Shown: positions 18,993 through 31,521 of the stretch, piece by piece
How positions within the stretch are numbered: position 1 is the first letter of the stretch
How the letters are laid out: each line of letters begins with the position of its first letter
DNA from: Gautieria morchelliformis
Taxonomy: Eukaryota > Basidiomycota > Agaricomycetes > Gomphales > Gomphaceae
Length of the DNA: 64,000 bases
Direction of reading: 5' to 3'
NCBI GenBank assembly: GCA_015179125.1
Contig: WHVA01000213.1
Coordinates: 1-64,000 of the forward strand
Program-made: the position numbers and the translations under genes
Notes under the pieces: model-generated
Told to the model about the DNA's origin: nothing
Databases searched by the model: none
What the model saw: only the letters and a program-made list of their open reading frames with translations

Positions 18993-18995
18993 TAA

Positions 18996-19638
18996 GGAGG
19001 ATGTTTATAAATGTCATATATATGTATATATAGCTTAGCTAATCTATATTTCATAAAATATATCACAATTGAGACAGTTGCCAGCACCTGTAAGACATGC
19101 TTAATCCTAGCCCTACAGTTCTTTCTCACAGTCTGCAGCTCCCCCAGGAAAGGGTGTATACCCCATTGTCTAAACATCAATAGTTACATATCTTTGTACT
19201 ATACATGCATATTATTTTAAACATACCTTCTAATCAGATCTCTCAACCACATATAATAATATAGTACAGGTATTGTCCATACTTGCTTCTATATTCTGTG
19301 ATTGTACATCTAACAGGTTTCATATATACTTCTAACATGTACTCATATGGTCCATACTTGCCTCTACATTCTATCATCATACATGTAGCAAGCTTCATAT
19401 ATACTTTTAATATATAGTCATCCAACTCCTATCTGAAATTGCTCTGTTATCTCAATACACACCATGCTTTAGCACATACAACCATATTTTTAAAATATCA
19501 GAACATTCAAAAAAATTTAGGCTATCCACAATATACAAGTTGCTCAAAATGATGGACTATGAATTTGGTTAGGGTTGATATTTTAAAAGATATCTAATAT
19601 ATCCTAAAAGAATGTACATTGCAATGTGAACATCCTCC
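18996..19638 (+). mobile_element. Left 643 bp TIR-bounded end element (MITE-like)
   Basis: It starts GGAGGATGTTTATAAATGTC and ends GTGAACATCCTCC. Internally it has a tandem duplication of about 75 bp, each unit starting GTCCATACTTGC(T/C)TCTA. The same sequence is found at 28341-28986 in direct orientation and at 29301-29946 inverted. No coding potential is convincing. Its right-hand flank TAG does not match its left-hand flank TAA, so it does not look like an independent insertion here; it behaves as the end of the larger element. Confidence 0.85.
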
Positions 19639-21017
19639 TAGTAGCACCTACCCTCCTTCTTTTGATGTCTAATGTAGTTCTCTATGCATTGTGTTGGATC
19701 AAAATCTTCCTCCCTTACCCAAGTGGGATCTTCATAGTTTTTCCATTGAACTAAGTATTCTCTCTTCTTTCCTTTTGTCTTATGATCAAGTATTTTGTTC
19801 ACTTCATATGTATCTTCAATATCTTGATCAGATTCATCTGTATCTGCACCTGCTAACAATCGTGCTTGATACTTAGACATTTTCTTTGCATCTTCTGTAA
19901 TACCCTTTAGAGTTGAGATTCTCAGTGACTCAAAGTCAAGGGTATCAGTTGATGGATAGCCAAAATGTCTCTCCATCCATGACATATGATTAGGTTGTGC
20001 TTGGAGCTCTCCTAATTTAACAAACCGTTTGATATTAAGTAGCAAGCATGCTAATCTAAACTGCAAAGAGAATATCTTAGGATTTGATGTTTGGACAGGC
20101 TTCTGATTATTTAACTTCTTAAATGTTATTCCTAACTCTCCAAAGAAGCTTTCTATCTTTGATCTGAAAGTACCAAATCTTTCATTGTAGCACTTCTCCA
20201 TATCTGATAGTTCAGCATTCTTCTGCTTCCGAATTGGATGGCAGAAATTCATGTCTTTCAATCTACCTTGCTTTACTACTTGTTTCACAAATAGCGTATA
20301 GCCTCCATCAAGAGCCATATGATCCGCCTTATCCATCTTATCTCTTAAGTTCATTTCTGCGAACATTGCTCCATCAGAGTGGTTACATGGCAATCAATCA
20401 GAAACAAACACAGCCATCTCATGAGGATCAGTAATTACTTGAGTTCTCATTCCAGAATGCCTTAGTTTATGTGGCCATTGCACTTTAGATGATCTCCCTA
20501 TTTCTGTTCCTCTTGTGTCATGACCATCAAGGAATAAAGTTATTGTGTTGAATACTTTTTCCTTATTATTATCCTTTGCAGATAATATTCTAATCCTTAT
20601 GTTGGAAAACATATGAGCCAACAAATCAATGACTTTGTCATTTAAGTCATTATTAAGATCCTTTTCATGTCTAAAAAAACTCTGATGGATCGCATGAAAA
20701 GTACTCCCAGGTATAAATCTGTTCATATCATCAAATGTACAACCTTCAAGCAGATGATAGATTATTAATAGTCCCTTCTCTACATTTCAATATGGACCTG
20801 GGTGGTGCTTGAATGGAAACAACACTACTAGGAAGAAGAACACTGGTATTGGTCCAAGTTTCTCTAATACTCTTTTTTTGATGAGATCTATTTCAGAAAC
20901 AGGTTTTAGTCCTGTTTGATTAAATTTAGTTGGCTTCAACAAAGGCCATTTTTCATCAAGAAACCCCCAATGTTCATTCATCAACATTTGATATTCTTCA
21001 AGGAGTGACTCATTCAT
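19638..21017 (-). pseudogene. DDE transposase (Harbinger/DDE_Tnp_4-like) with C-terminal chromodomain
   Basis: One minus-strand frame of about 459 codons, with a start at 21017 and a stop whose last base is the end of the left repeat. Two in-frame TGA codons interrupt it, at 20787-20789 and 20394-20396. The catalytic triad can be proposed as Asp in LFLDGHDTRG, Asp in MALDGGYTLF and Glu in FRSKIESFFGEL, with the order and spacing of DDE_Tnp_4 transposases. The last 65 or so residues form a chromodomain: TYEVNKILDH, KKREYLVQWKNYED, TWVREEDF, with Tyr, Trp and Tyr at positions expected for a methyl-lysine cage. A DDE transposase cuts and rejoins the element ends; the chromodomain would tether it to methylated histone H3, by analogy with chromovirus integrases. 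Both stops are TGA, compatible with CGA or TGG having mutated. The missing residue identity is not known. Confidence 0.82.
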
Positions 21018-21412
21018 TATAAAGGAAAGTTCTCAGCTATAATGATGAGTCAGAAAAAAGAGTGTTGTATATTTTAGTTCGTTGATAAGCTGACGACTGT
21101 ATATATTTCGATTTTATATTGCATTCACTATTCAACTCTCTAAATAAAACCATAAATAACAAAAAGAGAATATAGAACTTTACTGGAATTATATTCTCAA
21201 CTACTGGTCTATATTACCTTCCACAATAAGTGATGACATATACACTAACAGATAGAGATAAATCAATGATACCAAAACTTTGTAGTTAGCAAGCATGATC
21301 ATAATAATAATATTTCTGATGATATGTAATTTAAACAAGAGTGCTAGCAATGACAAGGACCTAGTTGACAATTGAATTATAAAACCAGATTAGTGTCTAA
21401 TATGAGTCAGTA

Positions 21413-21661
21413 TTGAAAATTGATTCTGTGAAATTGGAATTGGGTCTAGTAGCCATGGAAGCCCAGATTGTCAAGCTCTCTAAAAGGATTGACAGAATCA
21501 CAGAATGGATAGAAGAAAAAGATGAGATAATATCAAATCTCAAACAGATATCTGAGGAACAACGTAGAGAGATTATAGAATTAAGAGAGCAGATTAAAAA
21601 TAATAAGCATGTAGGATTGCGAATTAGAAAGATTGCTGGATATTGTATGTTTTATGATTAA
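21413..21661 (+). CDS. Small coiled-coil ORF, transposon cargo
   Basis: An 82-residue frame with heptad-like spacing of hydrophobic residues over most of its length (LVAMEAQIVKLSKRIDRI, EKDEIISNLKQISEEQRREI), which predicts a coiled coil and perhaps dimerisation. It precedes the larger cargo ORF by about 60 bp on the same strand, so both may be expressed together. The function is unknown; an accessory DNA-binding or assembly protein of the transposon is one guess. Confidence 0.5.
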   Translation: MKIDSVKLELGLVAMEAQIVKLSKRIDRITEWIEEKDEIISNLKQISEEQRREIIELREQIKNNKHVGLRIRKIAGYCMFYD

Positions 21662-22525
21662 CAAGATAATTGCTATAGTCTAGAAGATATGGGTCTTTAT
21701 AGATCAAACACCTTGCAAGTTGTCTACAGTGTACCGTAAAAAGAAAGACCTGGTATCATATGAGATCGTAGATTATCAAATAAATTTTATGACAAAACAA
21801 CACAACAAACCAGAACCAATAAATTTAACAACAGTTCATGCTCAAAAGGAATCTCAGCTTACTCAAGAAGACCTAAGCAGTAGAAACATTAAATTTGATA
21901 TCAAAAATATCACAGAAAATTGTAGGGTATATCATTCAGCAGATAATTACTTTGAGTTAGCAGACATGGATGTATTTATGGATGGAGAAGAAATATCCCC
22001 TTTAATAGCATATGATGAAGAGGATGATCTAGTATCATATGAGGTCAATGATAATAATCCAATAAATCTGCTGACAGAACAACCAGATAAATCACATCAT
22101 GCTAGATATATCAAAAGAATCACACCAATTTGTAGAATACATGATTCAGAAGGTAATTACTATGAGTTAGTAGACATGGATGTATATATGGATGGAAAAG
22201 AAGTATCCATTTTAACAGTATATCTTAGATGTAATTATCTGGTATCATATCAGGTAATCAATGATAAGAATCAAATAAACCTCCTGACAAAACAAGATAA
22301 GAATCGTACAAAGGATAGTTCAGTACATAATTCTCCTCAAATGAGTAAAACTAGATCAAAACCAGATAAGAAACCAAAGCAATCTACTCCTGATGAGATC
22401 TCAATATTTGATACTCTTGATGAGAAAGGATATATTGATACTCGATCGTTATTTGAGATTGATGATGAGATACGCAAGCAGAATAGATTAGCTTCCAATA
22501 ATGAGAGATCAATGTTAGATATGGC

Positions 22526-25094
22526 TGTCATGACCGGTTTATTTCTCCTACCGCGTTACCTCCATGTTCCCCCTCGTCACTCCCTAGCATCTTCGTCAGA
22601 GTTCGCCGCACCTACCAACCACTCCTCCTCTACATCCACTCTACTCGTTGTTCGCCCCATCCTCCGAATCCCTATTCGCTGCTTGCGCATTTCGCCAGCA
22701 GGCACGCCATCAAATATGATCAATACCATCGATACCATTCACCCGGCATGATGGTTCATCATTAGCCCCATCATCTTCTTAATCCAACCCCATTGGGTGT
22801 TCGTATGGCCAAAGTGCGTTTTCAGGGCGTTCCTTCCATAGGTCATGCGGGATCAACCCAGCAAACGAAGAGTCCGTGCAGGGTAGCATGTATGCGGGTA
22901 CCAAGACATGGTTTTGTCCATAAGTGCCTTCGCCCCCTTTTACTCTCCGTCGTTCCACGTTCGCATTCTTCCCTCACTCTATTGTATGTTTATTCCATCT
23001 CCTTAGTATCATGACTGCACACCCCGATCCGGCCCTAACTCACGACGGCCTCTTTCCTATTCGCTAATACCTTGCGAGCATTCGATATAAGTAGTTTACA
23101 TTCGCATGTATATTCCCCAGTTCAATTATCATACGTCGTCCATCTTGTACAAACTTGACCTCGCTGTGATCATCATCTTGAGCCTCTCCTTGAAGATTTC
23201 TATCTTCAACCAGCCAAGGACTTAAGCATCACTGGTGAGTTCTCATACTTCATCTTCGTTACCTTAGCCTTCGAACTATTTTCTGTGCTGTTGGCGAAGG
23301 GCTCTGAAGGAGCACCTTCACCAGCGAAGGGACCGTCGAAACTTAGACAGCCCTTCCGCGATATCTTGCACGTTACGTCGTCAAGTGCTGCGAGCTATTT
23401 CGCTACGACTGTAGATAGGGTGAGCCCCGGTTAGGCAAACCCTCTTATCTTGTGAACATTCATTGGTTCACCTATTGTTTTGGAACCCTTCAAGACTTTG
23501 GTGTTATTGCTAACGCCTCTGTCTATCAGAACGTGTCGTTTACACGACTAGTAGAATACCAATTCAATGCAGCAGCACAACTCCGGAAATAATTTAATAT
23601 TTGTACCTTGGTTGCAATCTGTGTAATAACTAGTCCAAGTTATTACAGGTAGAAGGCAATGCGTTTCTTAGCTGCACTGAACAATAAACTAGAAGAGTGT
23701 GTAGGTTCAAGGACAATATCGGGGTCCAAGAGTATTCCTTTTAATAAAGAGGGAATAGGCTCCGCAGGAGAGTTTGTAAGTGGATTGGGTCGACCAATGT
23801 CAATGCACTGCAATAACGAGAGAGTAATGTGAAGTGCCTTTCGCGCACAACTTGACTTGACTTGACTTGTGAAAGTCACTGAACAGGAAAATCAACTGAA
23901 CAGCTCGTCTCGGGTATTGGAGTGCTAATTGACAAGAAAATTGATTGCCAACCTCACTCTGTAGAGTTTCACCCAGCGTGTTAGGCTAAGTGGCTAAGCA
24001 GTAAAGCAACTACTTAACTAAGAATAGTTACTCTAAGCAAGAGTAGTATTCTAGTTCGGGTTAGGAACTTAGGTAAGATGTGCAAGTCACACAAGCTGTG
24101 TAGGATAGAAGATGGGTAGATTGATTGCTCAAAGGACAGGCAAAGGGCCTCCTTTTATATTGTAATGTACAGGAGCTTAGTAAGCAGGTAGAACCTTCTA
24201 TATATTAATGGAATGGGGGAAGAAGCTTGTGGAAGATGGAAGAAAGGGTTGGAAGAAACTGGCTGTTTCCAGGGGACTCTACCATGCTTCCTACCAATCA
24301 GAGCTTGATTTGTCAGGAATGACTCACTGAAAAGGGTCATGTGCCATAGCACAGCTTGGCTGAGTCATGTACTCCTGACTCACCAAGTTGTGCCTGGATT
24401 GGTTGAGTCATTGAGGCTGTATCTCCAGATAACCATGTATTTGGCACTCAGAAGCTGAGTAAGCAGTCCTGAGCCAATTAGGGCTCTGTAGCCATAATTA
24501 CTAAGAGCACTGCTTAGCACAGCTGGGCATAGCCTGGTACAGCCTTGTTGTCATGACTGACCATGATCCCCATTGTTTGGTGAAGCCAAACAGGCTGCAC
24601 AGTTGCTATGGGCAACTGTTTGGGACTCAGCTGGAAATACTGAGAGAGCCATCCTGCCAGACTTGTGGGTGCTTGGGTGACCATAAGAATGCGGCCACCG
24701 CCGAGGTGCCCGGCGGAGTTTGAAATAGAGCGCCGAGAACAGAGTTGTGGGTGCTAGAGGATCCACAACTCTGTAATGTCAGAAAAATGGTAGTTTGAGC
24801 CATGGAGACTTCGGAAAAATAAGGAAAAATATGAGATAACTAGAGGAATGTTTGAAAAGCCTTTCCCCAGTTATATTAACAGCATACAAATACTGTTAAT
24901 TCCTCAAATGTGTTTTTACATGTTGTCAAGACAAAAAGAAAAGACTAGGGCTGGTTGAGCAGCCTTCCTTGGCTGGTTGAACAGCCATTCCCCTACACCT
25001 ATTCACCTAACGGCATACTTATTGGCACAAGTTATTCGGGCATTCGCTGTGTTCACTAATACACGATATTAACGCCTAAAACCCAATCTTGACA
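22526..25094 (+). mobile_element. Ty3/gypsy solo LTR with nested second LTR
   Basis: It starts TGTCATGACC and ends ATCTTGACA, with ATGGC duplicated on both sides (22521-22525 and 25095-25099). It matches the LTRs of the gypsy element at 31522-40099 over its whole length. Net of the nested insertion it is about 1,040 bp. It is a fossil LTR left after LTR-LTR recombination, and younger than the transposon it sits in. Confidence 0.88.
23476..24997 (-). mobile_element. Second solo LTR, 1,522 bp, nested in the first
   Basis: The plus-strand ends are TGTTTTGGAACCC and CCCCTACA, with CCTAT duplicated at 23471-23475 and 24998-25002. A TATAAAAGGAGG box on the minus strand near 24160 suggests that its transcription runs leftward and that its 5' end is TGTAGGGGAATGG. 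The family is likely Ty1/copia by style of the ends, which is not certain. It is the most recent insertion in this stack. Confidence 0.75.
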
Positions 25095-25613
25095 ATGGCC
25101 AAGGAAAAAAAGGATAGATCAAAGGTAGATGAGAGATCAATGTTAGATATTCTTCAAGATAGGTGCCCACCAATAATCCTAGAAGATGAGGTATTGTGAC
25201 CTCTACAATTGTGAGTCATAGAACCTTGTCCATCCATTGATATAAAAATTTGGAACAGCATATAAGCTGAATTATGTATCATACATGTTTGTTTCTAAAT
25301 ACTAATTCAAGTACTGGAATTATCATCATATTCCATGGTAACGATTACTGTAGGATGTATGAATGTATTTCTACCAAAATCAGATCTTATGATGTTAGAG
25401 ATAGAATAAAGTATAATTACTACTCATGAAAGTGAATGTATTGGTTATATAAGTCATTCTATATGTAGTAAGAGTAAAACTCATAATGTTTAGCAATGTT
25501 TCTATTAAGATTCTTGATGATAAATATCAAAACTGTAGAAACTAAGCTTTTAAACAAAGCTTGTACACTATCTTATGACTCATAGATTACCTCACCAAGT
25601 TGTAAAACATAAT

Positions 25614-25686
25614 AGACCAAATAAATTAGTTGGTAAAGCACCCTATATACTAACGGGGTCCCAGGTTTGAACCCTGGTCTGGTTAA
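25614..25686 (+). ncRNA. tRNA-like sequence or tRNA-derived SINE head
   Basis: An A-box-like TTAGTTGGTAAAGC is followed 30 bases later by a T-arm CCAGG-TTTGAAC-CCTGG and an acceptor-like GACCAAA/TCTGGTT pairing with one mismatch. The D-stem and anticodon stem pair poorly. It is therefore not a convincing functional tRNA. It may be a tRNA pseudogene or a SINE promoter in the AT-rich transposon body. Confidence 0.35.
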
Positions 25687-25807
25687 TCGAAGATTTGGAG
25701 GGGTTTGTAGTACTTCTGAGTATATGCTTAAGCATATATTTGACAATGTCACAGACCTCCTTTGAATCTTCTATGATTTTTAATGGTCTATATAAAATAA
25801 TAGGAGT

Positions 25808-26011
25808 TCAATGACTTTTTTCATTATTTGTTTTGTAGACCTTCATCCTTCCATCTTGTAGTACAAGTATGCCATAGACGGTAATTGTCTCTTGTTGTTG
25901 AGAGTTAGAATATAAGGCAATCATCATGCCTTTTGTCAGACTATTATATATACAGCATTCATTATATTTATCATATCCTACAACTAAAGGATACTTTGTT
26001 TTACCATTCAA
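25808..26011 (-). CDS. Small uncharacterised ORF in the transposon body
   Basis: A 67-residue frame starting NGKTKYPLVVGYDKYNECC and ending in a basic tail. The beta-rich pattern (LVVGYD, TVYGILVLQDGRMKVY) looks protein-like, but no family is recognised. The open frame extends a little upstream without a start codon, so a 5' part may be lost. Confidence 0.3.
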   Translation of the reverse strand: MNGKTKYPLVVGYDKYNECCIYNSLTKGMMIALYSNSQQQETITVYGILVLQDGRMKVYKTNNEKSH

Positions 26012-26893
26012 TATAACCTTTGCAATACCCAGGCCAAAACCCTAAAACCTGAGATGCTCCCTATAATTAAATTATACAGCTCATCAGAACCATAGTGATT
26101 TGGAAGGGTAAGGCCATTGTGCACTAGAAACTGACCATTGTTACAAGAACTCATGTTTGTCATTACAGAAGGAGACTTCTATGTTTATTATCAGGTCTCC
26201 TATTTTAATAACAGACCTGTCTCTGGTTGCCTTGGTACTATCAAAAAAGGTAGATATCTTACGAACCATGCTTTTGATAACCATGGTTCATCTATATGAA
26301 TTGACAACTTTGTGAAATCAGTTTTTATTTAGTATGTCATGGTATTATACCATCAATCCTGATAGAAATGCATTTATCTACATGCCCATAGTCACTTAGT
26401 GTATAGGTACATAATCTTATGTCATTCTGTGATAATAGGCACTAAACAAATATTATCTACAGTGCTAAGATACTCTTTACTATCAAACAAGGCCATGCAA
26501 AAAGGTATGTTAACGAACTATAGATAAGAAAGACACCATTACATATATCAGCAGCCACCAACATATATACAGTAGCTGAACATGATAGCATCTTACTGTT
26601 TGATATTATTGCCGTTGGGTCACATATTCATCCACCTCATGAAAAGAGGACTACCACGATTTATAAGAAATGTCAGTCCAAAACTTTAGGTTCTTCACGC
26701 TGACTGATCTCATAATTAGCTACTTACAAGCTGAAATATATAGCAAAATGCATACAAAAAAGAGTCAAGTTTATTCTGTGACTGTAGATAATAATCATGT
26801 GATTCTATAACTAATAGAGGGTAGGGGCTGAATCCTGTCAAACAAAAAGTGAATACAAACTGAGTTTAATATAATATACAAGCTGGATTGACA

Positions 26894-27049
26894 ATGCCAT
26901 GCATCCCTACAGCAGGAGATAAAGTGACATTTATACATCCAAGGACTGGGGAGGAGATAAGGGGTGTTGTTACAGTAGTAGATATTCCAGGGAGGACAGC
27001 AGGTATTCTTTATGAAACAAAAGGGCAGATAAGTGGACTTATCAGTTAA
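26894..27049 (+). CDS. 51-residue ORF, possible SH3-like/KOW-like small protein
   Basis: The frame begins MPCIPTAGDKVTF and reads IHPRTGEEIRGVVTVVDIPG before ending. GDKVTF... followed by a short strand-turn pattern is reminiscent of small beta-barrel domains. The codon positions give protein-like composition in an otherwise AT-rich background. It is too short to place in a family. Confidence 0.3.
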   Translation: MPCIPTAGDKVTFIHPRTGEEIRGVVTVVDIPGRTAGILYETKGQISGLIS

Positions 27050-27267
27050 TGTATCGAATACGGATAATCCAAGATTTTGAAGCACTAAAAGAAATAATTG
27101 ACTAGACTAACCCTGTTTATATACTAGAAAAGAATAAAATTGTCAGACCTCACATTGGTGAGCTTTTAAAAACCCTTTTATACAACTATAATCTTGTAAG
27201 GTGAAAAAGAAGGTGATAAGCTATATAAAATGTTATCACGATATGTGTCATTTTTCAAATATATTGA

Positions 27268-27924
27268 ATGATAAGAGTAGAGTGTTTTCAGAAGATAGAG
27301 ATGGATATAGAACCTGCTCTAAAAACCTCTATAACAGTTGCTTTGAACAACCACACAAATCCTAACAATCTAGAATGTTTTTGGTATGCCCCTTGGAATA
27401 TTATTCTCATGGATTGCTTTGCTGATAATATGATAATAACTCCTCAACATGCATTTGTTTATGCTGTAGAAAACAGAGATGAAGATATAGAATCTAAGAT
27501 GTTAATCCCAGATTTTACAATCACTAAATATATTAAGAAAAGTAACTTTATAAATAGTACTACATATTTAATAGTAGAAATAAAAAGAAGTGTTAAAACT
27601 ACAGGTGAACTTGAAAAGATCTTCAAGGATACTCAGGAGCAACTGGTAAATCAGGTGACAGTACTATTCCTAGATACCAATTATAAAAGTGTATATGGTA
27701 TAGCTGCTGTAGGGGAATATTGGAGACTTATTAAATATAAAAATTTAACTCATAAGTAGAAACCCCAAAAACCTAGAAGTTCTTGGGAGAGTGAGAGTTA
27801 TGGTAAAAAAGTGGAGGTAGTAAAAATAGTACAAGTATGTAGACTGTTTGATATTTACAGGGGTACATATAATGAGGATCTTGATAAGTTGAAAAGATTG
27901 GTTACACGCTTAGAAACAAATTGA
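27268..27924 (+). pseudogene. PD-(D/E)XK nuclease-like cargo protein
   Basis: The frame is open from 27268 to a TAG at 27757-27759 and continues in the same frame for about 54 more codons to a stop at 27922-27924. The core reads LIPDFTITKYI, then STTYLIVEIKRS: an Asp in a PD motif followed about 20 residues later by Glu-x-Lys in a hydrophobic strand. That is the pattern of PD-(D/E)XK nucleases. Next come a helix rich in Lys/Gln (TQEQLVNQVTVLF) and a strand YGIAAVGEYWRLI, as in Rec/REase-type folds. The upstream residues (LECFWYAPWNIILM) may form the first helix. If active, it would cut DNA. Its presence beside a DDE transposase is unusual. The TAG is probably decay. Confidence 0.5.
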
Positions 27925-27955
27925 TATATCTACAATTATTTAAAGGATATTAGAT

Positions 27956-28270
27956 ATGTACTTCAGAACACTACTAGGATGGAAGGTAACAGAAGAAAAG
28001 ATGATAGAACAATGTACTAGGTTAGGAATGAAAAATGTTGAAAACGATTCCAATTATCTCAGTAAGCTAGTTGGAATCATAAAATGTCTTGACTGTCCTA
28101 TAGTAAGATTCTCTTTAGAAAGACAAGCAGACAGAAAAGAAAAAGGTAAAGATATCCCTTTCATATTGACAATATATGAAGGTCCTGAGAGGAAAGGAGT
28201 AGTAGATGTGAATAAGATACTAAGTACGTTTCCTGATATATTTGAGACAATAAAAGAGATCTTGGAATAA
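27956..28270 (+). CDS. Uncharacterised 104-codon cargo ORF
   Basis: It reads MYFRTLLGWKVTEEKMIEQC near the start and ends IFETIKEILE. The composition is like that of the neighbouring cargo ORFs, and it lies 31 bp downstream of the nuclease-like frame on the same strand. It may be a second polypeptide of the same transcript, or an originally spliced continuation. No family is recognised. Confidence 0.4.
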   Translation: MYFRTLLGWKVTEEKMIEQCTRLGMKNVENDSNYLSKLVGIIKCLDCPIVRFSLERQADRKEKGKDIPFILTIYEGPERKGVVDVNKILSTFPDIFETIKEILE

Positions 28271-28340
28271 AAGGAGAACCTCAATTCTTTTTAGGAGAGC
28301 CTTAGAATATAGCATTTATAGTTTTTAAAATGTTTTCCTA

Positions 28341-28986
28341 GGAGGATGTTTATAAATGTCAGATATATGTATATATAGCTTAGCTAATCTATATTTCATA
28401 AAATATATCACAATTGAGACAGTTGCCAGCACCTGTAAGACATGCTTAATCCTAGTCCCAAAGTTCTTTCTCACAGTCTGCTGCTCCCCCAGGAAAGGGT
28501 GTATACCCCATTGTCTAAACATCAATAGTTAAACATCTTTGTATTATATATGCATATTATTTTAAATATACCTTCTAATCAGATCTCTCAACCATATATA
28601 ATAATATAGTACAGGTATTGTCCATACTTGCTTCTATATTCTGTGATTGTACATCTAACAGGTTTCATATATACTTCTAACATTTACTCATATGGTCCAT
28701 ACTTGCCTCTACATTCTATCATCATACATGTAACAAGCTTCATATATACTTTTAATATATAATCATCCAAATCCTATCTGAAATTGCTCTATTATCTCAA
28801 TACACACCATGCTTTAGCACATACAACCATATTTTTAAAATATCAGAACATTCAAAAAATTTAGGCTATCCACAATATACAAGTTGCTCAAAATGATGAA
28901 CTATGAATTCGGTTAGGGTTGATATTTTAAAAGATATCTAATATATCCTAGAAGAATGTACATTGTTGTCAATATGGACATCCTCC
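28341..28986 (+). mobile_element. Right 646 bp TIR-bounded end element (MITE-like)
   Basis: A near-identical direct copy of 18996-19638, starting GGAGGATGTTTATAAATGTC and ending TGGACATCCTCC, followed by TAA. The flank on its inner side is CTA. The few differences from the left copy are single substitutions and a small indel near the right end, so the pair is young or has been homogenised. Confidence 0.88.
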
Positions 28987-29300
28987 TAATTGTGTAGCCA
29001 GACGATTTCGGTTCTGGCTAATGCTGCTGCTATAAACTCGGCTTCCATCATGGATAGTGTAACAATGTTCTGTAATTTGCTTGCCCAGCTGACGGCTCTG
29101 GTTCTGATTCTAGTGAGGAAACCCGAGGTTGATCATCCATTATTGCCTCACCCGGCTCCAGACCCAATCATCCCTGCTCCACCTGGACCAGACCAGGCCC
29201 TGCCTCCACCACCAGTCAGTACCTGCACCTATTGATCAACCCCGCCGCTCAAGCAGAATCACGCAACTGGACTACCGGCACCTCAATTACCCATTCCTGA
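28987..29300. mobile_element. Ty1/copia remnant pieces in opposite orientation
   Basis: 28987 to about 29140 on the minus strand encodes the start of copia RNase H (RAVSWASKLQ, VTLSMMEAEFIAA, EIVWLHN), which leads into 18992 across the transposon. From about 29130 to 29300 the plus strand encodes a Pro-rich linker (PIIPAPPGPDQ, DQPRRSSRITQLD) typical of the integrase-RT junction. The reverse transcriptase between them is missing. The element is a rearranged fossil. Confidence 0.7.
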
Positions 29301-29946
29301 GGAGGATGTTCACGTTGACAACAATGTATATTCTTCTAGGATATATTAGATATCTTTTAAAATATCAACCCTAACCAAATTCATAATCCATCATTTTGAG
29401 CAACTTGTATATTGTGGACATCCTAAATTTTTTGAATGTTCTGATATTTTAAAAATATGGTTGTATGTGCTAAAGCATGGTGTGTATTGATATAACAGAG
29501 CAATTTCAGAGAGGATGTGGATGACTATATATTAAAAGTATACATGAAACATGTTAGATGTACAATCACAGAATATAGAAGCAAGTATGGACCATATGAG
29601 TACATGTTAGAAGTATATATGAAACATGTTAGATGTACAATCACAGAATATAGAAGAAAGTATGGACAATACCTGTACTATATTATTATATATGGTTGAG
29701 AGATCTGATTAGAAGGTATGTTTAAAATAATATGCATGTATAGTACAAAGATATGTAACTATTGATGTTTAGTCAATGGGGTATACACCCTTTCCTGGGG
29801 GAGCAGCAGACTGTGAGAAAGAACTTTGGGACTAGGATTAAGCATGCCTTACAAATGCTGGCAACTGTCTCAATTGTGATATATTTTATTAAATATAGGT
29901 GAGCTAAGTTATATATACATATATATGAGAGTTACAACCATCCCCC
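29301..29946 (-). mobile_element. Third 646 bp MITE-like copy, inverted
   Basis: The inverse of the end elements at 18996 and 28341, beginning GGAGGATGTTCACG and ending in a degenerate terminus (ACCATCCCCC). It includes the same internal 75 bp duplication. It sits between the linker and the integrase part of the copia remnant. With 28341-28986 it forms a long inverted-repeat pair 314 bp apart. Confidence 0.85.
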
Positions 29947-31521
29947 TAGTGGAGTGGGTGTGGGTAGGAGTGAGCTGTAGTCAGAGGTTTTGGTGGACAG
30001 GCCTGGGAACTCTTACTCATCAAAAACGATGTCCTGTCATATGATATAATGTTTCTTGATGAGGTGAAGGCAGCATCACCCTTGGTAACCATCCTCGAAT
30101 CCAAGATAGATACATTTGTGAGATCAGGGTTCCAGTCCATTTCGCTCATCCTTCTGTACGTGGACATAGGCAGTGCAGCTGAATATGTGCAACATGCCGA
30201 GGTCTGGCTTTTGGCCATGCCAGGCCTCATATGGGGTCATATCTGGCAGTGTGGATGTTGGTGTAGCGTTGATGATTGGAACTAGTGGTCGTAGAGCATC
30301 CCCCCACATTGATGCTGGAAGATGAGCTTGATGTAGTAGTGCTATTATTCCTTCGATGAGGGTGCGGTTGGTTTGCTCAGAGATCCCGTTCTGTTGTGGG
30401 GTGCCTTTAGTTGTATGCTCATGGACTATTCCCCAGCATTGGAAATGTTCATCCCATTTTCTGCCGATATATTCACCTGCTTTGTCATCTCTGAATCTCC
30501 TTACTCTCAAGTTCAGTTGGTTTTCCGCTAGCGCTTCATAGGACCAATAGGCATCAAAAACCTCGTCCTTTGTTTTCAAGAGGTATACACATCTATATCT
30601 CATGCAGTCATCTGTGAACATTATCCAGTATCAATGTCCGGATGACGTCCTGACCAGGAGAGGTCCGTATATGTCAGAGACGATGAGGTTGAGTGGTTTG
30701 GAGGATCGGCTGTCATTGGCTCCTGGGAAGGGGTCACGATATTGTTTTGCAGCAATACACGGTTCGCAAATTTTAGGAATTTTCTTATTCGAGCTCACAC
30801 TTATTCCCTTTGCCATACCATTTGCTAGGAGCTTGTCCAGGCATGCCGATCCAATGTGAGCTAGTCATTTGTGTAATGATAATCAGTCCACAGCAGGCGG
30901 TGAGGTTGTTAGGGCAAACTCCGGGATTGGAATCATGTCCCCAGCAAGGAAACCAGTTCCATTTTGTACTGTGGCACAGAAACACAGATTACCATCTTGC
31001 ACGAAGGAAATGTGATCTTTTACGATATTGACGATAACACCGTGGTGTGTGGTAAGGCAAAGGACTGCGAGTAGATTATTTTGGAGCATGGGTACATGTA
31101 AGACTTGTGACAAGATGATACTTCATGCTGGCTTCCCATTTATGATGGGTGTAAATAAGACATGCCCCCTTCCAGCTGAATACACAATCTCGTTGGTTGT
31201 GAGGCGGATGGGCACACGATAGGTTTCGTAGTTTCGAAGCCAATGATGGTGTGGGGTCATATGGCTCGTGGCACCTGTGTCTGTGTTCCAGCGTAGATTA
31301 GCGTCAATCTTGGAAGTGGGCAGGGATGAGTAGCGCAGGCTCGTATTTATGGCAAGTTCCTGCACTGCTCCGTCTTGCCCGCTTTCCACTGCCTGGTGTG
31401 CACTTTTCTTTCTCTTGTTCTCTCCCCCCCTTCGCATAGGTTTAAGGTCCGGATGGGCAATCCAGCAGCGATCTGCTGAGTGCCCCCACTTCCTGCATAC
31501 GGTACACGTCGGGATGGGAGC
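29947..31521 (-). mobile_element. Ty1/copia remnant: gag zinc knuckle, protease, integrase
   Basis: On the minus strand, starting near 31521: CTVCRKWGHSADRC zinc knuckle, protease DTGATSHM, an integrase zinc-binding region (ICEPCIAAKQYRDPF), and the integrase core (VSDIYGPL, DDKAGEYIG, TPQQNGISEQTNRTLIEG), followed by the usual IISYD..FDE region. The 5' end is cut off by the gypsy LTR that starts at 31522. The element is broken in several places. Confidence 0.88.

Follow-up and report, generated by a model that had tools for sequence, protein, structure and literature searches.

A multicopy fungal DNA transposon with long terminal direct repeats and a provisionally Harbinger-like transposase

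The window analysed here, a 64,000-nucleotide stretch of the basidiomycete Gautieria morchelliformis (positions 1 to 64,000 of the forward strand of contig WHVA01000213.1, assembly GCA_015179125.1), carries within a copia element a 9,991-bp block bounded by two direct repeats of about 645 bp. This block, complete in length though decayed, belongs to a family of DNA transposons in which an internal region (INT) lies between two long terminal direct repeats (LTDRs). Its parts, including five open reading frames (ORFs) and the target-site duplications (TSDs), are as follows.

18993..18995, no strand: left TSD, TAA, read from the sequence; TAA occurs just once in each of the four empty sites that were read
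18996..19638, plus strand: left LTDR, with short inverted ends GGAGGATGTT..AACATCCTCC and an internal tandem duplication of ~76 bp
19639..28340, plus strand: INT, beginning with TAG and finishing with CTA; junctions identical in other paired units
19638..21017, minus strand: ORF A, DDE_Tnp_4 transposase with a C-terminal chromodomain (Pfam); 459 codons plus stop
21455..22525, plus strand: ORF B, with a repeated motif of ~70 amino acids (aa); the window copy is frameshifted and interrupted by the nested insertion
22526..25094, no strand: nested insertion with TGTCA..TGACA ends and the 5-bp TSD ATGGC; foreign to the unit and unmatched in the other units compared
23477..24995, no strand: second-level nested insertion of ~1.5 kb with the 8-bp TSD CACCTATT; foreign to the unit
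25688..26284, minus strand: remnant of ORF C, which is 217-243 aa long in other units
27292..27903, plus strand: ORF D; carries a single stop in the window and spans ~207 aa in another unit
27944..28255, plus strand: ORF E; ~137 aa in another unit
28341..28986, plus strand: right LTDR, in direct orientation, 96% identical to the left LTDR
28987..28989, no strand: right TSD, TAA, read from the sequence

Both LTDRs start with GGAGGATG and end with CATCCTCC, and they are 96.0% identical over 649 aligned bases. They enclose an interior of ~8.7 kb, and their flanks are TAA and TAA on the outside, TAG and CTA on the inside. An earlier note on this DNA, made from the letters alone, had described two direct ends of ~645 bp, each bounded by terminal inverted repeats (TIRs), with TAA at the outer flanks, and this description is confirmed at 18996-19638 and 28341-28986 with TAA at 18993-18995 and 28987-28989.

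The insertion site is found empty elsewhere. When the joined window flanks were used as a query and the best 40 of 78 candidates were scored, 38 matches spanned the window junction, the remaining two being the window's own halves; the site is empty in 38/38 other scored copia copies, with one TAA in the four empty-site alignments that were read. Relative to these four, the window copia is one base short beside the junction, and because of this the RNase H frame shifts there. The earlier statement that the copia RNase H reads on across the gap thus stands at the DNA level (38/40 matches), but not for the reading frame.

In its own genome (the source genome of 122 Mb in 1,113 contigs, which was the genome searched) the unit is multicopy: the 8.7-kb interior matches other loci with its order kept. 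The pattern for the left inner junction has 31 occurrences, its reversed version 0. An INT left start follows directly after an LTDR end in 34 of 35 cases, and in the 35th after an LTDR end beside which 3 bp have been lost. At the INT right ends, taken with at most one mismatch (n = 25), 22 are followed by this LTDR, one by an LTDR with a 42-bp deletion and two by another LTDR-like repeat. Since all 35 left and 25 right ends adjoin an LTDR or LTDR-like repeat, there is no interior end with a cleanly removed LTDR among the ends examined. A second right junction type, GATAAGCTA, corresponds to a shorter interior (C260, C284, C771).

Ten units with readable outer flanks, the window included, were paired by hand from the junction lists; an eleventh, C245, has a truncated left LTDR and was left out of the scoring. 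The outer 3 bp match exactly in five units, with TAA in the window, TAT in C345, TTA in C260, CTT in C284 and GTT in C837, whereas 1.0 such match is expected when right flanks are shuffled (p = 0.001). Counted by letters, 21 of 30 outer-flank positions match against 13.0 expected (p = 0.004, by shuffling among the ten units). One mismatch is seen in C448 (CTT/CTC), C771 (TTA/CTA) and C165 (CAT/AAT), the last a unit with its ends 20 kb apart. The inner flanks of paired units are constantly TAG and CTA, while the outer flanks differ by site, and unit LTDRs matched their own inner flank exactly in 0/19 left and 2/14 right cases. Because the units are multicopy, their inner junctions constant, their outer flanks matching and the copia sites empty, we conclude that the unit transposes as a whole, which is the best supported step of the mechanism discussed here. 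The earlier note had proposed as much for the full 9,991 bp, and had taken the unmatched inner flanks as an argument against two insertions of miniature inverted-repeat transposable elements (MITEs); the argument gains from the recurrence of the same inner junctions at many loci. The genome search that it recommended for further full units yields nine more with both ends, so that exact outer duplications are now known at five sites including the window.

LTDRs are also found in isolation. Their right-end pattern, with up to two mismatches, occurs at 341 places, unit LTDRs among them, against 0 for the reversed pattern. We collected 87 copies; the first 40, the best of 507 candidates found with the window repeat, were scored as the best matches to that repeat and are a biased set, and 20 more, with the perfect pattern, were hand-picked from 100 listed right ends. 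Seventy-eight copies are readable at both ends: 19 are left unit ends and 15 are right ones, with one copy serving as both, and 45 are solo LTDRs. The nine unscored copies are L090, L094, L095 and L100, which are without the left end, the left LTDR of C245, the right LTDR of C241, C304 (L106), a right unit end with a 42-bp deletion, and C265 and one C337 copy, which have one diverged end each. The 3-bp flanks of the 45 solos match exactly in 35, with one mismatch in 7 and worse in 3; 20,000 shuffles of the solo flanks gave 3.4 exact matches on average and never more than 12. C1103 and L102, both among the 45, have common flanks and represent one duplicated site. In the hand-picked set of 20, 13 of the 15 readable solos have an exact TSD. 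The preferred target has T or C in first place, A or T in second and any base in third: the centre of the exact solo TSDs is A or T in 33/35, while TAA or TTA makes up 8/35. According to the earlier note, a mobile composite would be untenable if the 645-bp element were everywhere inserted with its own TSD and no second full unit existed; most solos indeed show TSDs of their own (35/45 exact), yet full units are present at other loci.

The LTDRs fall mainly into length classes of ~575 and ~649 bp, which differ by one 75-76-bp internal repeat, and no ORF was found in them. In L113 (C599:5000-5330) and L114 (C137:155880-156120), the same INT right end leads into the other LTDR-like repeat, GGAGG[AT]TAATCAAAAAGG..., which is itself repeated (best 40 of 529 candidates scored). 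The stretch examined at C137 has just a short INT piece beside this repeat. The presence of the repeat at the INT right end may reflect LTDR exchange between subfamilies.

The paired ends of this DNA transposon behave much as those of long terminal repeat (LTR) elements do. Mean identity between left and right LTDRs is 0.974 within units and 0.946 with shuffled partners, a value as high as the former being reached in 0/100,000 shuffles, and the length class is concordant within 8/10 paired units. In a tree of 81 LTDRs (6 of the 87 were left out), the two LTDRs of a unit are exclusive sisters in 6/10 cases (support 99/89 or better); the pairs of C284 and C133 lie within groups of 4 and 20 respectively, and those of C701 and C771 are far apart. 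The LTDRs of C701 and C771 are also of unequal length and their outer flanks imperfect, a combination suggestive of chimeras between units. At C202 (L084, C202:7480-8180) a single LTDR has an interior right end on one side and the left start of an interior on the other; this is a tandem sharing one LTDR. Recombination between the repeats is the simplest reading of the alike ends, and it would also explain the solos, the tandem and the chimeras.

ORF A was seen at 15 of the loci fetched and encodes a protein of 459-464 aa, the stop codon straddling the border between the left LTDR and INT. In Pfam it matches DDE_Tnp_4 (E = 4e-12, 46.5 bits, cut-off 24.8) and Chromo (2e-9). Among 12 copies selected because their full 459 codons align without a frameshift, the window included, 7 are free of stops, and the window copy has two internal stops. 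The mean ratio of nonsynonymous to synonymous substitution rates (dN/dS) over the 66 pairs of these 12 copies is 0.46, against 0.69 and 0.88 in the shifted frames; the transposase is under purifying selection. Relatives in a PDB sequence search were limited to the chromodomain (E up to 0.01), and a search of viral contigs gave none for ORF A. ORFs B to E have no Pfam family above the cut-off, giving only weak matches at chance level. ORF D has dN/dS of 0.36-0.47 in three comparisons. By eye it has PD..ExK-like residues, and a PD-(D/E)XK nuclease was considered and rejected, as no Pfam family exceeds the cut-off; its one match in the PDB sequence search is at chance level (E 0.42), and its single-sequence fold has a mean predicted local distance difference test (pLDDT) score of 34.

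Taking the evidence together, we place at roughly 87% the probability that this is an LTDR-INT-LTDR DNA transposon that has moved as a unit, its outermost ends probably being paired by the transposase and its LTDRs probably being kept alike by recombination. The ORF A transposase presumably moves the unit via the outermost inverted ends, as indicated by its presence in units, its constraint and the 3-bp TSD common to units and solos. It would bring together the outermost GGRGGATGTT ends, one from each LTDR, and mobilise the whole stretch in between, the inner ends being mostly unused. Solo LTDRs would then arise repeatedly from units, mostly through recombination of the direct repeats, as solo LTRs do, and some perhaps by moving alone. 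Recombination between LTDRs, whether by crossover, gene conversion or passage through a circle or tandem with one repeat, would keep pairs alike and might also make the chimeric units and tandems.

Several observations weigh against this reading. A right end could be assigned to only 11/35 INT left starts, the unscored C245 included; the lists contain none for the rest, and at C204 and C497 the two junctions are present in opposite orientations. The GTT/GTT match of C837 counts as exact only if one right-end base is taken as substituted. The outer flanks of C133 (ATA/TAT) and C701 (GAT/TTA) have zero matching letters, and those of C133 would match only by assuming one extra A. The rate of exact matches in units (5/10) is below that of solos (35/45). 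The two right LTDRs that match their own flank (CTA/CTA) are those of C771 and of the second C284 locus; for C771 an independent insertion of the right LTDR is possible, though the inner junction is common to C260 and C284. C133, C448 and C165 combine alike ends with outer flanks that do not match exactly, so discordant ends and imperfect flanks are not strictly coupled. On a tree of 37 LTDRs, units (23 hand-picked rows, one LTDR per unit) are intermixed with solos (14 of the 15 hand-picked ones), with 12 changes versus 11.6 shuffled, which fits recombination but could also reflect LTDRs moving alone. ORF C has no clear constraint, with dN/dS of 0.86-0.92 in four between-type comparisons; of its two within-type comparisons, one gives 2.5 and the other no synonymous change. 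We saw neither an excision footprint nor a polymorphic site.

Composite transposons of bacteria and macrotransposons of eukaryotes mobilise a stretch of DNA by means of a complete, directly oriented transposon end on either side of it. An unlikely though substantial alternative regards the LTDRs as plain non-autonomous MITEs that the transposase mobilises; the composite would be an opportunistic pair that was amplified (a macrotransposon, as in Tn10 or maize Ac/Ds), and the solos would be mostly independent MITE insertions. The excess of LTDRs over units (341 right ends, unit copies included, against 31 left junctions), the exact TSDs of 35/45 readable solos and the complete inverted ends of the LTDRs all favour it, as does the excision of single LTDRs, which is strongly suggested for the animal transposon KolobokP (PMC9587614). 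However, if LTDRs could leave freely, many interiors lacking one LTDR would be expected, and all 35/35 left starts adjoin an LTDR end while 0/25 right ends are bare. There are no solo-only clades in the tree of 37, and a pair formed once would have produced left-type and right-type LTDRs, whereas 6/10 pairs cluster by unit.

It is more doubtful still that the element follows a DNA-only cycle resembling that of LTR elements, in which each round would pass through a circle or tandem with one repeat, the transposase would nick opposite strands at the ends of the single LTDR, and fill-in would regenerate two identical LTDRs. If this were true, the paired ends would be rebuilt at every transposition. 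An LTR retrotransposon with an unusual interior is highly improbable: its direct terminal repeats, solos, shared-repeat tandem and alike ends would all be accounted for, but we reject it because no reverse transcriptase (RT) was found in the five ORFs scanned against Pfam and the TSD is of 3 bp, and GG..CC ends with inverted repeats of ~10 bp, DDE_Tnp_4 as the sole recognised catalytic domain and the lack, by eye, of a TGG primer-binding start beside either repeat speak against it as well. That two MITEs inserted independently and by chance around an unrelated 8.7-kb segment, as each repeat's being a complete TIR-bounded element might suggest, is ruled out by multicopy units with constant inner junctions, by the near absence of own-flank matches in unit LTDRs (0/19, 2/14) and by the absence of the whole block from empty copia sites.

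With the LTDR-INT-LTDR transposon as the preferred reading, its relation to known systems can be considered. With composite transposons and macrotransposons it shares two direct TIR-bounded elements that mobilise the intervening DNA and leave one outer TSD (5/10 exact versus 1.0 expected). It differs in that the transposase gene lies mid-unit, that the repeats yielded no ORF, and that the amplified family is the composite as such. The likeness to LTR retrotransposons extends to direct repeats that are alike within a copy, solos, a shared-repeat tandem and probable chimeras between elements; the differences are the lack of an RT in the five ORFs, DDE_Tnp_4, a TSD of 3 bp rather than 4-6 bp and inverted ends of ~10 bp. 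It is thus LTR-like in its behaviour with no reverse transcriptase found. PIF/Harbinger elements have a TAA or TTA TSD and a second protein with a Myb/SANT-like domain. The unit resembles them in its DDE_Tnp_4 transposase, 3-bp TSD and short inverted ends starting with GG, and departs from them in that just 8/35 exact solo TSDs are TAA or TTA, in its long direct terminal repeats and C-terminal chromodomain, and in that Pfam reveals no Myb/SANT-like second protein in ORFs B to E. The earlier label of Harbinger-like is kept provisionally, as it relies on DDE_Tnp_4, the 3-bp TSD and the GG..CC ends rather than on a tree that includes known Harbinger proteins.

Bacteria provide the textbook cases of composite transposons with long direct ends. 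We found one eukaryotic lineage with such a plan in the open-licence literature, in animals, and in that literature no paper describing a Harbinger-like element with long terminal direct repeats. The suggestion that a eukaryotic composite of this kind would be unusual is tempered by the animal precedent, KolobokP, which is the closest known kind. This member of Kolobok, reported from seven animal phyla and encoding a His-Me finger nuclease, has the LTDR-INT-LTDR layout with LTDRs of ~450 or ~660 bp, solos and LTDR-sharing tandems (Kojima and Bao 2022, PMC9587614). The two have in common multicopy LTDR-INT-LTDR units whose LTDRs have their own short TIRs and similar lengths (here ~575 or ~649 bp), inverted ends with a 5'-RR start and a YY-3' finish, solo LTDRs with TSDs of a few bp, LTDR-sharing tandems, and a transposase mid-unit outside the repeats (PMC9587614). 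The fungal element is set apart because its transposase type, chromodomain and other ORFs differ: the transposase is of the DDE_Tnp_4 type with a chromodomain, the C/DxxH motif was not found between the second D and the E (D237 and E289, catalytic residues assigned by eye), and none of the four other ORFs matches a His-Me finger nuclease by Pfam, although they may include a remote relative. Also unlike KolobokP, there is no interior without an LTDR among the ends examined. The same plan, here with a Harbinger/IS5-like transposase, suggests that it can arise more than once, and provides a second case for asking how paired direct ends are maintained. In repeat annotation, the solo ends may be classified as MITEs and the parent element overlooked.

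The earlier note did not report a third copy of the 645-bp repeat, inverted, at 29300-29949, ~310 bp from the unit, with mismatched flanks (CTA/TCA), nor the two nested insertions inside the unit. Elsewhere in the genome, the locus pairs C284:22229 and C284:44965, and C1103:46525 and C227 (L102), have identical outer flanks, a sign that the assembly contains duplicated segments or uncollapsed haplotypes. The nested insertion of 2.57 kb (22526-25094) is LTR-like, with TG..CA ends and its 5-bp TSD ATGGC. The 1.5-kb repeat within it (23477-24995), with an 8-bp TSD of hAT-like length, occurs in 23 other places at 96-98% identity and has probably been active recently.

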